A stretch of 54,291 nt of DNA. It comes from Clostridia bacterium (GTDB lineage: Bacteria; Bacillota; Clostridia; Christensenellales; Aristaeellaceae). Made by a program: the position numbers and the translations under genes. Below the pieces are notes generated by a model. It was not told the origin of the DNA. It saw only the letters and a list, made by a program, of their open reading frames with translations, and did no database searches. The stretch is from the NCBI GenBank assembly GCA_017552535.1, contig JAFZPV010000028.1, positions 1 to 54,291 on the forward strand, read 5' to 3'. Below, in pieces: positions 21,365 through 29,886 of this stretch. Position 1 is the first letter of the stretch; each line of letters starts with the position of its first letter.

Positions 21365-21895
21365 TTACAGCTCGTAGCCCAGGCGGATGGCTGTTTTGTT
21401 GAGCTCCAGCAGGTTCTGCTTTCTGGCGGAGACCACTTTGGCCAGGGTCTTGTCGATGGTCTCAGCGGGGAACATGTTCGTCTCCTTGAGCATTTTGCCC
21501 ATCACGATCATGTTGGCCAGCGTGGCAAAGCCCGCGTCGTTCGCCATTTTGGTGGCCGGGATCGGGAACGCCCTGATGTCCGTGCGGGCCACCCCGCGCT
21601 CGATCAGCGAGGAATCGTAGAACACCATGCCGCCCGGAACGATGTCGTTTTCGAACTTGTCCAGGGAGGGCAGGTTCATGGCGATGAGCACGTCCGGATA
21701 CGGCGCCAGGGGACTGCCGATGGGGGTATCGGAGATGATCACCGAGCAGTTGCACGTGCCGCCGCGCATCTCGGGGCCGTAGGAAGGCAGCCAGGTGACT
21801 TCCTTGTTTTCGAGCAAGCCCTCGTAGGCCAGGAATTTGCCGGTGAACAGCACGCCCTGACCGCCAAAGCCCGATATCAGAATGTTGGTGGTCAT
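21365..21895 (-). CDS. 2-oxoacid:ferredoxin oxidoreductase, gamma subunit
   Basis: This 176-residue protein has the gamma-domain signature ILISGFGGQGVLFTGKFLA, then TWLPSYGPEMRGGTCNCSVI, which is strongly conserved in KorC/VorA-type subunits. It completes the alpha, beta, delta set upstream. The complex converts 2-oxoacids plus CoA to acyl-CoA plus CO2 with ferredoxin, reversibly. It overlaps the beta subunit gene by ATGA. It is the last gene of the T-box operon. Confidence 0.93.
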   Translation of the reverse strand: MTTNILISGFGGQGVLFTGKFLAYEGLLENKEVTWLPSYGPEMRGGTCNCSVIISDTPIGSPLAPYPDVLIAMNLPSLDKFENDIVPGGMVFYDSSLIERGVARTDIRAFPIPATKMANDAGFATLANMIVMGKMLKETNMFPAETIDKTLAKVVSARKQNLLELNKTAIRLGYEL

Positions 21896-22647
21896 GCCTG
21901 TTTTCCCTCCTCAGCAAATTTGTCCTTGTATACGCCCAGCGGATAGTACGGGATCATGTTTTCTTCCAGCCACGCAAGCGCCTTGTCCGGCGTCAGGCCC
22001 CAGTTGGTGGGGCAGGTGGACAGCACCTCGATCAGCGAAAAGCCCTTGCCCTCCATCTGGTAGCGGAACGCCTTTTTGATGGCGGCAGCCGCGGCGCGCA
22101 CGTTCTTCACGTTGTTTACCGCCACGCGCTCCAGGTACGCGGCGCCGGTGACGTTGGACAGAAGCTCGCACACGCGCACGGGATAGCCCACGCTTTCCAC
22201 CTTTCTGCCGTAGGGGGAGGTCTGGGTGACCTGGCCGGGCAGGGTGGTAGGCGCCATCTGTCCGCCGGTCATGCCGTAAATGGCGTTGTTCACGAAAATA
22301 ACAGTGATGTTTTCGCCGCGGGCAGCGGAGTGCACGGTCTCGGCGGTGCCGATGGCCGCCAGGTCGCCGTCGCCCTGATAGGTGAAGACGATGTTGTCCG
22401 GGTTCGCGCGCTTGACGCCCGTGGCTACAGCGGGGGCTCGCCCGTGGGCGGCTTCCACCATGTCGCAGTTGAAATAGTTGTAGGCGAACACCGAGCAGCC
22501 TACGGGGGCGATGCCTACGGTGCGGCCTTCGATGCCCAGTTCGTCGATGGCCTGAGCTACCAGGCGGTGCACGATGCCGTGTGTGCAGCCGGGGCAGTAA
22601 TGCAGCTTCACGTCCGCCAGGGCGTGCGGTCTGTCAAAAACGATCAT
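21892..22647 (-). CDS. 2-oxoacid:ferredoxin oxidoreductase, beta (TPP) subunit
   Basis: This 251-residue protein binds thiamine diphosphate through YQGDGDLAAIGTAE followed 25 residues later by NNAIYGMTGGQM. HYCPGCTHGIVHRL at the N-terminus and GCSVFAYNYF carry conserved cysteines. The size fits KorB/VorC, which lacks its own iron-sulfur insertion. The gene is contiguous with the alpha subunit gene (the next base after its stop) and overlaps gamma. The preferred 2-oxoacid cannot be told from this subunit, but gene context (aminotransferase, LeuA-like protein) points to branched-chain acids. Confidence 0.93.
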   Translation of the reverse strand: MIVFDRPHALADVKLHYCPGCTHGIVHRLVAQAIDELGIEGRTVGIAPVGCSVFAYNYFNCDMVEAAHGRAPAVATGVKRANPDNIVFTYQGDGDLAAIGTAETVHSAARGENITVIFVNNAIYGMTGGQMAPTTLPGQVTQTSPYGRKVESVGYPVRVCELLSNVTGAAYLERVAVNNVKNVRAAAAAIKKAFRYQMEGKGFSLIEVLSTCPTNWGLTPDKALAWLEENMIPYYPLGVYKDKFAEEGKQA

Positions 22648-23715
22648 TTATTCGGCACCTCCCGTCTTATCCGCTTCTTCGATCTTGGCGAGCACCTCTT
22701 CGGGGGTGGGGATCATGCCGCCCACGCGGGAGCACAGAAGCACCGGGCGCGAGCAGCGGATGGCCAGCTCCACATCCTCGATCATCTGGCCCATGGACAG
22801 CTCCACGCTCACGAAGGCCTTCGCGTGCTTTGCGGCTTCCTTCAGTGCGGCTTTCGGGAACGGCCACAGGGTGATGGGACGGATGAGCCCGGCTTTGATG
22901 CCCTTTTCACGGGCAGCCAGGATAGCGTTCCTCGCCACGCGGGCCGCCACGCCGAAGGCTACCACCACGATGTCCGCGTCGTCCGCCATGAAGCTTTCGT
23001 ACATGGTCTCGGTCTTTTCGATCTGGGCATAGCGCTCGTAGCGCTTGATGTTCCACTGCTCCAGCTCTTCGGGCAGCAGGGAAAGGGAGTTCACGATGTT
23101 GTGCTTCCTCTCGCCGCGGGTGCCCGTGACGGCCCAGGGCTTGTCGTATTCCCTGACCTCCCCCATGTCCAGGCTCACGGGCTCCATCATCTGGCCGATG
23201 GTGCCGTCCGCCAGGATCATCGTGGTCATGCGGTATTTGTCCGCCAGGTCAAAGCCCTTGAAGACGAGGCTGGCCATCTCCTGCACGGAGGAGGGCGCCA
23301 GCACCAGCATGTGGAAATCGCCGTGGCCCGCGCCGCGGGTAGCGTGGAAATAGTCCGACTGGCTGGGCTGTATGCCGCCAAGACCCGGGCCGCCGCGCTG
23401 CACGTTGATCACCAGCGCCGGCAGGTCGCAGCCCGCCAGGTAGCTAAGGCCCTCGCTCTTCAGCGAGATTCCGGGGCTGGAGGAGCTGGTCATCACGCGC
23501 TTGCCCGCGGAGGCCACGCCGATCACCATATTGATGGCCGCGATCTCACTTTCCGCCTGCAAAAACGTGCCGCCGATCTGGGGCATGCGCTTGGCCAGGT
23601 ACGCCGCCACTTCCGTCTGGGGCGTGATGGGATATCCGAAATAGTGACGGCAGCCCGCCATGATGGCGGCTTCCGCCAAGGCCTCGTTGCCCTTCATCAG
23701 TACTTTTTCGCTCAT
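22648..23715 (-). CDS. vorB: 2-oxoacid:ferredoxin oxidoreductase, alpha subunit (VorB-like)
   Basis: This 355-residue protein starts MSEKVLMKGNEALAEAAIMA, followed by GYPITPQTEVAAYLAKRMP. These are the hallmarks of VorB, the alpha subunit of 3-methyl-2-oxobutanoate:ferredoxin oxidoreductase, and of the close KorA group. SSSSPGISLKSEGLSYLAG and VQRGGPGLGGIQPSQSDY are further conserved blocks that line the TPP site. The start at 23715 has GGTAGGAG upstream. The ferredoxin-subunit gene precedes it by seven bases. VOR and KOR are hard to separate by eye. I lean to VOR because of the leucine-type T-box and the branched-chain aminotransferase in the same operon. Confidence 0.9.
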   Translation of the reverse strand: MSEKVLMKGNEALAEAAIMAGCRHYFGYPITPQTEVAAYLAKRMPQIGGTFLQAESEIAAINMVIGVASAGKRVMTSSSSPGISLKSEGLSYLAGCDLPALVINVQRGGPGLGGIQPSQSDYFHATRGAGHGDFHMLVLAPSSVQEMASLVFKGFDLADKYRMTTMILADGTIGQMMEPVSLDMGEVREYDKPWAVTGTRGERKHNIVNSLSLLPEELEQWNIKRYERYAQIEKTETMYESFMADDADIVVVAFGVAARVARNAILAAREKGIKAGLIRPITLWPFPKAALKEAAKHAKAFVSVELSMGQMIEDVELAIRCSRPVLLCSRVGGMIPTPEEVLAKIEEADKTGGAE

Positions 23716-23722
23716 GCCGCTC

Positions 23723-23929
23723 CTACCTTTCTACCTTGATCACGCAGTCGGGGCACATGGTGGCGCAGCACGCGCAGCCGATGCACTTGTCCATCTCCAC
23801 CACGTGGGCGGGATGGTGGCCCTGGGAGTTGAGCTTGCTTTCGTCCAGGCTCACGATCTTCCGGGGGCACGCGCTCACGCACAGGCCGCAGCCCTTGCAG
23901 CGCTCTTCTCTGAATGTTACCTTTGCCAA
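23723..23929 (-). CDS. 2-oxoacid:ferredoxin oxidoreductase, delta subunit (2[4Fe-4S] ferredoxin)
   Basis: This small protein of 68 residues contains two four-cysteine motifs, CKGCGLCVSACP and CIGCACCATMCP, each binding a [4Fe-4S] cluster. It passes electrons between the TPP site and free ferredoxin. I start it at the TTG at 23929 (reading AKVTFREERCKGCG), just after AGAGGTGG. A TTG at 23962 would add 11 residues without a clear ribosome site. It lies between the ATPase gene and vorB. Confidence 0.88.
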   Translation of the reverse strand: MAKVTFREERCKGCGLCVSACPRKIVSLDESKLNSQGHHPAHVVEMDKCIGCACCATMCPDCVIKVER

Positions 23930-29600: not shown

Positions 29601-29619
29601 TGACTGTGCTCCTTACATG

Positions 29620-29850
29620 AAAAACGCCCCGGAACGCTGTTCCGGGGCGAGTTGATCGCGGTACCACCCGAATTACCGGCAGATGCCGGCATCTCATTGC
29701 CTGTAACGGCGGCTGCCGTGACCCCCTACTTTTTTTCGGAAGCCCCGCTCCGGAACGAGACGAATACGCGCCCTCTGCCGGCTCTCACCCGCCGCCGGCT
29801 CTCTGAAAGACCGCACGCAGACGATTTTCCTTCATCGCGTTTCAAAAGAA
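29620..29850 (-). promoter_or_regulatory. T-box leader, probable leucine (CUC) specifier
   Basis: On the minus strand the leader shows a GATGAAGGA motif (about 29838), the AGAGAGCCGG...GAGAGCCGG Stem I apex, a GGAGC segment, the T-box proper GGGTGGTACCGCG (29669-29657) and an 11-bp terminator stem CGCCCCGGAAC/GTTCCGGGGCG (29649-29625) followed by TTTTT. Uncharged tRNA pairs with the T-box region and lets transcription proceed. The specifier is best placed at CTC (29759-29757), which precedes a purine and lies five bases before GGAGC; other triplets are not excluded. It controls the LeuA-like/acyl-CoA synthetase/IlvE/VOR operon. Confidence 0.9.
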
Positions 29851-29857
29851 TGGGAGA

Positions 29858-29886
29858 AATATACCATGTTCCTGCAAAAAAGTCAA
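29858..29886 (-). promoter_or_regulatory. Promoter of the T-box operon
   Basis: TTGACT (29886-29881) and TATATT (29863-29858) are separated by 17 bases on the minus strand, directly upstream of the T-box leader. Confidence 0.8.

Follow-up and report, generated by a model that had tools for sequence, protein, structure and literature searches.

A leucine T-box operon predicted to make leucine from isovalerate

The window analysed here is the whole 54,291-nucleotide contig JAFZPV010000028.1 of a Clostridia bacterium (assembly GCA_017552535.1, Aristaeellaceae). Its minus strand carries an operon in which a T-box leader precedes genes for a LeuA-like protein (pseudo-LeuA), a fusion of a TIM barrel with an acyl-CoA synthetase, the branched-chain aminotransferase IlvE, a MinD-like ATPase and the four subunits of a 2-oxoacid:ferredoxin oxidoreductase (VOR). 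Comparison with related genomes makes it probable (about 0.82) that this operon makes leucine from environmental isovalerate, with a leucine-sensing pseudo-LeuA and parallel synthetases for valine and isoleucine. In the proposed mechanism, the operon would be read when uncharged tRNA-Leu pairs with the leader at its CUC specifier and its UGGU, so that no terminator forms. The AMP-forming synthetase would convert isovalerate to isovaleryl-CoA, a substrate suggested by the T-box and the operon. The oxidoreductase, presumably carboxylating with reduced ferredoxin and CO2, would convert isovaleryl-CoA to 2-oxoisocaproate, and IlvE, assigned by family and here given its likely substrate, would aminate 2-oxoisocaproate to leucine. 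Free leucine would be sensed by pseudo-LeuA, which would restrain the TIM-fused synthetase as a second, protein-level feedback. Synthetases behind valine and isoleucine T-boxes, sharing the oxidoreductase, would do likewise for isobutyrate and 2-methylbutyrate. The route from isovalerate through isovaleryl-CoA and 2-oxoisocaproate to leucine had been proposed in the initial annotation, and the comparison supports it in three ways: leucine specifiers in the relatives, sister synthetases labelled valine or isoleucine, and a genus without IlvC and IlvD where these were searched.

T-boxes switch genes on when the cognate amino acid is short. The uncharged tRNA pairs with the specifier and its ACCA pairs with UGGU, and the terminator then does not form. 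The leader had been called leucine-type from the start; it matches the Rfam family, and its specifier was read as the leucine codon CUC, rather than a codon outside the branched-chain amino acids, by both the covariance-model alignment and a positional rule (Table 1). The same annotation assumed one promoter. A promoter-like site does stand just upstream of the leader, and a second, better-scoring site lies further upstream on the same strand, which leaves a single promoter only likely; in the region, 5 promoter-like sites were observed versus 2.0 expected.

The eight closely packed genes previously described downstream of the T-box were all recovered as minus-strand open reading frames; adjacent frames overlap or stand apart by no more than 18 nt (by the list of open reading frames, with the ferredoxin start taken at about 23929), and their Pfam domains agree. 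IlvE passed the NCBIfam equivalog cut-off (473.7 versus 307 bits) and VorB the subfamily cut-off (527.9 versus 399 bits). In the fusion protein, Pfam found the AMP-binding domain with 301.2 bits and its C-terminal domain with 65.1 bits, as expected of an AMP-forming synthetase. Ligase, oxidoreductase and aminotransferase, which a reductive carboxylation route requires, are thus all present in the operon.

Table 1. Leader and genes of the leucine T-box operon, in window coordinates
Feature	Position	Strand	Basis
Second promoter-like match, further upstream, 11/12 matches	30037..30065	-	Consensus match only
Sigma-70-like promoter TTGACT-N17-TATATT, TG before -10, 10/12 matches	29858..29886	-	Consensus match only
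T-box leader RNA, RF00230	29640..29844	-	Rfam 110.7 bits, E 1.1e-23, gathering 93
Specifier CUC (leucine), then G, then helix GGAA/UUCC	29757..29759	-	Rfam alignment and positional rule
UGGU of T-box sequence	29663..29666	-	Rfam match
Intrinsic terminator, 11 pairs then T5	29625..29649	-	Terminator search; in minimum free energy fold of leader 3' part, z -3.2
Pseudo-LeuA, 462 aa: barrel resembling isopropylmalate synthase but lacking its metal ligands, and LeuA_dimer, the leucine allosteric domain	28212..29600	-	Pfam, NCBIfam, alignment, predicted structure
Fusion of xylose-isomerase-like TIM barrel (residues 1 to ~280) and AMP-forming acyl-CoA synthetase (~290 to 836); proposed isovaleryl-CoA synthetase	25698..28208	-	
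IlvE branched-chain aminotransferase, 355 aa	24612..25679	-	NF009897
P-loop ATPase of MinD/CbiA-like type, 222 aa; its GTG start overlaps the ilvE stop	23947..24615	-	Pfam
2[4Fe-4S] ferredoxin / delta subunit	23723..~23929	-	Pfam; start chosen is TTG after GAGGTGG; open frame reaches 23962
VorB, 2-oxoacid:ferredoxin oxidoreductase alpha	22648..23715	-	NF005507
2-oxoacid:ferredoxin oxidoreductase beta (thiamine pyrophosphate-binding)	21892..22647	-	Pfam, NCBIfam
2-oxoacid:ferredoxin oxidoreductase gamma	21365..21895	-	Pfam, NCBIfam

Related loci keep the gene set and the leucine specifier

One scan of named genomes with the LeuA-like protein gave 537 related stretches, of which the best 80 were kept; by their titles, most come from ruminant and other gut genomes. 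Ruminococcus albus and R. flavefaciens, which are known to require branched-chain volatile fatty acids, do not appear among these best 80. The LeuA-like gene and, behind it, the TIM domain share a strand in all 80 loci, and the ligase is present in all 76 whose contig reaches that far. In 75 of these 76 (the exception is L061) TIM and ligase lie in one frame. The block MinD-ferredoxin-VorB-beta-gamma adjoins ilvE in many loci, in the window's order or rearranged. The window's gene order, put forward at first as something to be sought in other genomes, recurs among the relatives and is rearranged elsewhere in the 80 loci. The MinD/CbiA-like ATPase accompanies the VOR genes at every related locus with a strong VorB match.

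A T-box motif was found within 700 nt upstream in 58 of the 80 loci, and Rfam adds one more (L016). The specifier was read by a rule that takes three bases, one base and then the 3' strand of a helix pairing with the four bases after the K-turn. Among 57 complete leaders (the window and 56 loci; L012 and L063 were left out because they are cut), the specifier was CTC in 47, CTG in 8, TTG in L053 and CCC in L078, the last two tied with CTC; the calls for L060 and L061 rest on three of four pairs. A first version of the script had given leucine in 47 of the 57 leaders, the other ten calls being spurious helices, and the rule was tightened afterwards, so that the later count is not blind. The helices flanking the specifier covary among the leaders (GGAA/TTCC, GGAG/CTCC, GGCA/TGCC, GGTA/TACC, GAAA/TTTC). 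In L060 (Neobittarella massiliensis), two T-box motifs stand 123 nt apart (9759 and 9882) upstream of the gene, perhaps a tandem or partly duplicated leader.

The window's own genome holds 11 T-boxes, of which the script called four (the leucine operon, leuS, the valine-type synthetase described below and ileS). As controls, eight genes of this genome, named from their translations, were read with the rule, and it was exact in five of them: leuS CTC, ileS ATC, valS GTC, pheS TTC and trpB-like TGG. An earlier reading by eye, made with knowledge of the genes, had taken all the remaining own-genome T-boxes as cognate; the strict check confirmed this for valS, pheS and trpB-like, and not for thrS, cupin-trpS and aspS.

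Sister synthetases stand behind valine and isoleucine T-boxes

Second T-boxes were found by Rfam in L083, L089 and L022, and two more in L074, and they read isoleucine or valine. The 80 loci contain 35 synthetases that are not of the leucine type: 12 stand behind isoleucine T-boxes (ATC), 10 behind valine T-boxes (GTA, GTC), and for 13 no T-box was called. Of these 13, 12 belong to a shorter type (about 570 aa, with one gene cut), and the other is the first synthetase of L033, whose upstream DNA is cut. All 22 synthetases with a called T-box read isoleucine or valine. In L019, L050, L056, L062 and L087, leucine, isoleucine and valine T-boxes occur in one cluster with VOR genes. Both Ile/Val-type proteins run against Pfam carry helix-turn-helix (HTH), cupin and AMP-binding domains. 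In L083, an amidohydrolase gene (Amidohydro_2, 13951-14799, plus strand) lies between the leucine and isoleucine blocks.

The window's own genome has such a synthetase on another contig (L128 389-2941, equal to G000 C4:47188-49740); it fuses HTH, cupin and acyl-CoA synthetase domains and is preceded by a valine (GTG) T-box. Its best NCBIfam match is MbcS (NF047394), below the cut-off at 425.7 versus 850 bits, and it differs from that family in carrying the HTH and cupin domains in front. MbcS acts on isobutyrate and 2-methylbutyrate. A prediction fixed beforehand held that orthologs of this protein would read valine and the second paralog isoleucine. For this, 17 upstream stretches were fetched, and 12 came out as predicted, with valine in six of six orthologs and isoleucine in six of six paralogs; for three of the 12 (L150, L154 and L155) the specifier was taken by eye, and of these L154 is unusual in its 3' flank and L155 varies in its T-box sequence. 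The other five stretches gave one isoleucine and one valine each in genomes G043 and G010 (L159 by eye) and none in G041.

In the tree of synthetases, the leucine type forms one clade apart from the valine and isoleucine types. The tree counts 37 non-leucine synthetases, the extra two (L066 and L073) being leucine-type genes cut by contig ends. Isoleucine and valine labels are mixed in it, with five changes each; therefore the label cannot be read from the protein alone.

The same genome also has a T-box (L131 5897-6125, minus strand, equal to G000 C4:84896-85124) before genes for an acyl-CoA synthetase, IorA and IorB, which run down to L131 1895. IorA and IorB passed their NCBIfam cut-offs (686.5 versus 650.9 bits and 261.2 versus 230 bits). 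The Rfam alignment gives this leader the specifier UAC (tyrosine). The strict rule is ambiguous, giving TAC with the helix GGAA/TTCC by eye and ACA with a helix at the model's columns. By the same logic, this operon may make tyrosine from 4-hydroxyphenylacetate, as an analogous salvage of an aryl acid.

The de novo pathway and the direction of the operon

IlvC was found in none of seven genomes (the window's and six congeners) and IlvD in none of the six of these that were searched, these genomes being 75 to 97% complete. Both enzymes were found in all 14 control genomes. The aconitase-family frame is about 700 aa in the window's genus versus about 420-480 aa on the contigs of other relatives that carry a true leuA, and the LeuA-like gene is the only LeuA-family match in genomes G000-G007. 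Matching leucine, valine and isoleucine T-boxes, and the absence of IlvC and IlvD from the genus where searched, fit what would be expected of genes that salvage isovalerate, isobutyrate and 2-methylbutyrate. Six members of the genus (G000-G005) have one strong VorB copy per genome, that of G004 being split over two contigs; with a single copy, the oxidoreductase of the leucine operon may supply the valine and isoleucine branches too.

These data also bear on the direction of the reactions. The operon could in principle be catabolic and Stickland-like, with leucine transaminated and oxidised to isovaleryl-CoA and isovalerate to yield reduced ferredoxin; VOR-type enzymes are known to run oxidatively, and IlvE is reversible. 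We regard this as very improbable, since the T-box answers a shortage and would turn the genes on when leucine is scarce, and since the isoleucine and valine switches stand before further, separate synthetases. In addition, an AMP-forming ligase favours acid activation over release, and the genus appears without IlvC and IlvD where searched. The poor fit of a catabolic direction with T-box control, pointed out when the operon was first noticed, thus stands.

The LeuA-like protein has lost its metal ligands and kept its regulatory domain

The 81 LeuA-like proteins (the window's and those of the 80 loci) lack the residues of an active 2-isopropylmalate synthase. The metal Asp of RDG, each of the two metal His and the NGxGER motif are kept in 0 of 81. 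Traces are left in the catalytic Arg (44 of 81), the Asn of NGxGER (3) and the first and second His of HSGRH (16 and 1). The best match of the protein to the NCBIfam LeuA equivalog, 271.6 bits, does not reach the cut-off of 532, and its LeuA_dimer domain passes the Pfam cut-off clearly (109.3 versus 24.9 bits). The predicted structure (predicted local distance difference test, pLDDT, 86; predicted template modelling score 0.58) matches LeuA structures, including the leucine-bound M. tuberculosis structure 3fig. The label "LeuA-like" of the initial annotation therefore holds for the barrel and the LeuA_dimer domain, and not for the function, because the residues needed by isopropylmalate synthase are gone. 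An active LeuA is ruled out by the loss of both metal His, the metal Asp and NGxGER.

The LeuA-like proteins share on average 43% pairwise identity over the barrel and 73% over LeuA_dimer. True LeuA proteins of relatives show the reverse, with 56% in the barrel and 41% in LeuA_dimer. This set of 17 rows was chosen by the motifs HxH[ND]D and NGxGER, with two citramalate-synthase-like rows and two one-residue fragments excluded; L125-L127 entered the scan and gave no row. L100-L103 and L109 were retrieved as well and left out of the later analyses. Judged from these alignments, constraint in the LeuA-like protein is shifted from catalysis to regulation, and the conservation of its LeuA_dimer domain suggests that leucine is bound there.

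Of four domains compared across 62 loci, the barrel and the TIM domain have the most strongly correlated evolutionary distances (r = 0.88). In 26 loci, the Pearson coefficient for this pair is 0.96, the highest among eight proteins or domains, followed in the barrel comparisons by the ligase (0.91), VorG (0.90) and MinD (0.89). By rank correlation, two VOR pairs (0.80 and 0.75) stand above barrel and TIM (0.72). The correlation gives weak support to an interaction of the pseudo-LeuA barrel with TIM. The high-confidence model of the TIM domain (pLDDT 93) has a fold that resembles sugar epimerases and isomerases; its mean identity of 43% is as low as that of the LeuA-like barrel, and the ligase reaches 75%.

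Together, these data leave roughly even odds for a more specific proposal, that pseudo-LeuA is a leucine-sensing regulatory subunit which binds leucine with its allosteric domain and, by way of its barrel, shuts down the TIM-fused isovaleryl-CoA synthetase; with matched T-boxes on separate leucine, isoleucine and valine synthetases, and perhaps, with IorAB, tyrosine, this would amount to a doubly controlled amino-acid-rebuilding system in gut and rumen Clostridia. For the sensor part only, and with odds separate from those of the other alternatives, the rival reading is that the LeuA-like protein works as an enzyme through a new active site and adds a step, perhaps together with the TIM domain. 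In its favour, the barrel is kept, with invariant residues such as K106, D134, R137 and D162 across 41 aligned rows, the catalytic Arg survives in more than half of the proteins and the TIM domain keeps many metal ligands. Against a new enzyme stand the complete loss of the metal Asp, both His and NGxGER, and a barrel less conserved than the regulatory domain, the reverse of true LeuA. We consider it unlikely.

Observations that weigh against the isovalerate-to-leucine route

Several observations count against a leucine-controlled salvage operon. The ligase stays below its NCBIfam cut-off (best match 674 versus 832 bits), and none was passed among the 25 matches listed. No T-box motif was found within 700 nt upstream in 22 of the 80 loci, four of which have less than 300 nt of upstream DNA and one of which, L016, is positive by Rfam. 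The 22 include L021, which shares the window's gene order and in whose 21 kb Rfam finds no T-box, together with its look-alikes, which lack the motif. No isoleucine-type synthetase was found in the window's own genome, which is 77% complete. Many metal ligands of sugar isomerases are kept in the TIM domain (among 62 TIM proteins, E142 in 55, D170 in 53, H195 in 62 and E239 in 50, at positions that are likely ligands in that family), and the model does not need them. IlvC was found in 32 of the 78 genomes of the related loci, which rules out an exclusive link of these genes with loss of the de novo pathway; the 78 include the window's congeners, and L026 and L068 were dropped from the 80 because they come from the same assemblies as other loci. 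Of 60 relatives, 18 have a full-length LeuA-like gene and 42 do not; IlvC is present in 2 of the former and 16 of the latter (p = 0.063 before kinship correction).

The reading rule itself is also imperfect. In three of the eight control genes, thrS (ACC), cupin-trpS (TGG) and aspS (GAC), the codon that matches the gene is displaced one base 5' from the rule position (leaders at L134 249-441, L135 249-477 and L136 5209-5409, the last on the minus strand), which slightly lowers our confidence. Read one base 5', the window's specifier would be TCT, a serine codon that does not fit the genes; the leucine reading therefore stands.

The ligase could also activate another acid (longer, 2-oxo/2-hydroxy or aromatic), with leucine control being indirect. 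Its missing substrate assignment among the curated matches listed would agree with this, as would its nearest solved relatives by sequence, which are fatty-acyl, feruloyl and malonyl synthetases, and the separation of the leucine-type clade from the valine and isoleucine synthetases. In contrast, the leucine specifiers across 57 leaders, the operon shared with IlvE and VOR, and the valine or isoleucine specifiers on the sister synthetases argue for isovalerate, and another substrate appears quite improbable.

Relation to known systems

The leader belongs to the same RNA family as the leucine T-boxes of B. subtilis ilv-leu, whose specifier is likewise CUC (cited in PMC2494555), and of Geobacter, where a leucine T-box precedes leuA and tRNA-Leu GAG is described (PMC2700814). 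Instead of ilvBHC-leuABCD, the leader here governs a ligase, an oxidoreductase and an aminotransferase. A further parallel in PMC2700814 is Geobacter iorAB-paaK, listed under tryptophan with a conserved upstream sequence. It likewise joins an oxidoreductase and a ligase under an amino-acid heading, but belongs to the aromatic branch, and the passage that lists it does not describe the element upstream as a T-box. The accessible parts of two T-box and riboswitch surveys (PMC2494555 and PMC3766115) gave no match for acyl-CoA or ferredoxin.

The chemistry has been long established. According to PMC7356843 and the works it cites, branched-chain volatile fatty acids were described in 1962 as growth factors of rumen bacteria, and it has long been known that isovalerate, 2-methylbutyrate and isobutyrate are turned into leucine, isoleucine and valine there. 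The isovalerate carboxylation of Allison and co-workers (1962-1966) has the same acid, product and chemistry as proposed here, and many of the related loci come, by their titles, from ruminants. In the open-access literature, searched by title or abstract start, we found no paper that joins a T-box to isovalerate-carboxylation genes and no gene set with a T-box for that process.

Compared with 2-isopropylmalate synthase, pseudo-LeuA has the same barrel and LeuA_dimer domain, but the metal ligands and NGxGER are lost and constraint appears shifted to the regulatory domain. The oxidoreductase has the alpha, beta, gamma and ferredoxin subunits of VOR/KOR-type enzymes, but is joined here to an acyl-CoA synthetase, a leucine T-box and a MinD-like ATPase.

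T-box specifiers would act as built-in labels that assign each synthetase to an amino acid, an assignment that homology does not yield by itself in this family, and would make the substrates directly testable. The salvage operon suggests how genomes without IlvC and IlvD obtain branched amino acids, and its genes could be markers for cross-feeding in the rumen and colon. If pseudo-LeuA proves to be purely a leucine sensor, it would show clearly how an allosteric enzyme can evolve into a regulator.

Neighbouring features

Convergent to the operon, on the plus strand at 16911-21280, lie genes for a GH42 beta-galactosidase, a URO-D-like protein and an FAD-dependent oxidoreductase, followed by a strong terminator at 21308-21347. 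Divergent from the operon, at 30052-33636 on the plus strand, a gene encodes a 1194-aa protein with eight Big_2 Ig-like repeats; the His/Cys pattern in its C-terminal part is reminiscent of caspase-like peptidases. Elsewhere in the same genome, a raiA RNA (RF03072, 197 bits) was found at L136 2795-3001 (G000 C2).

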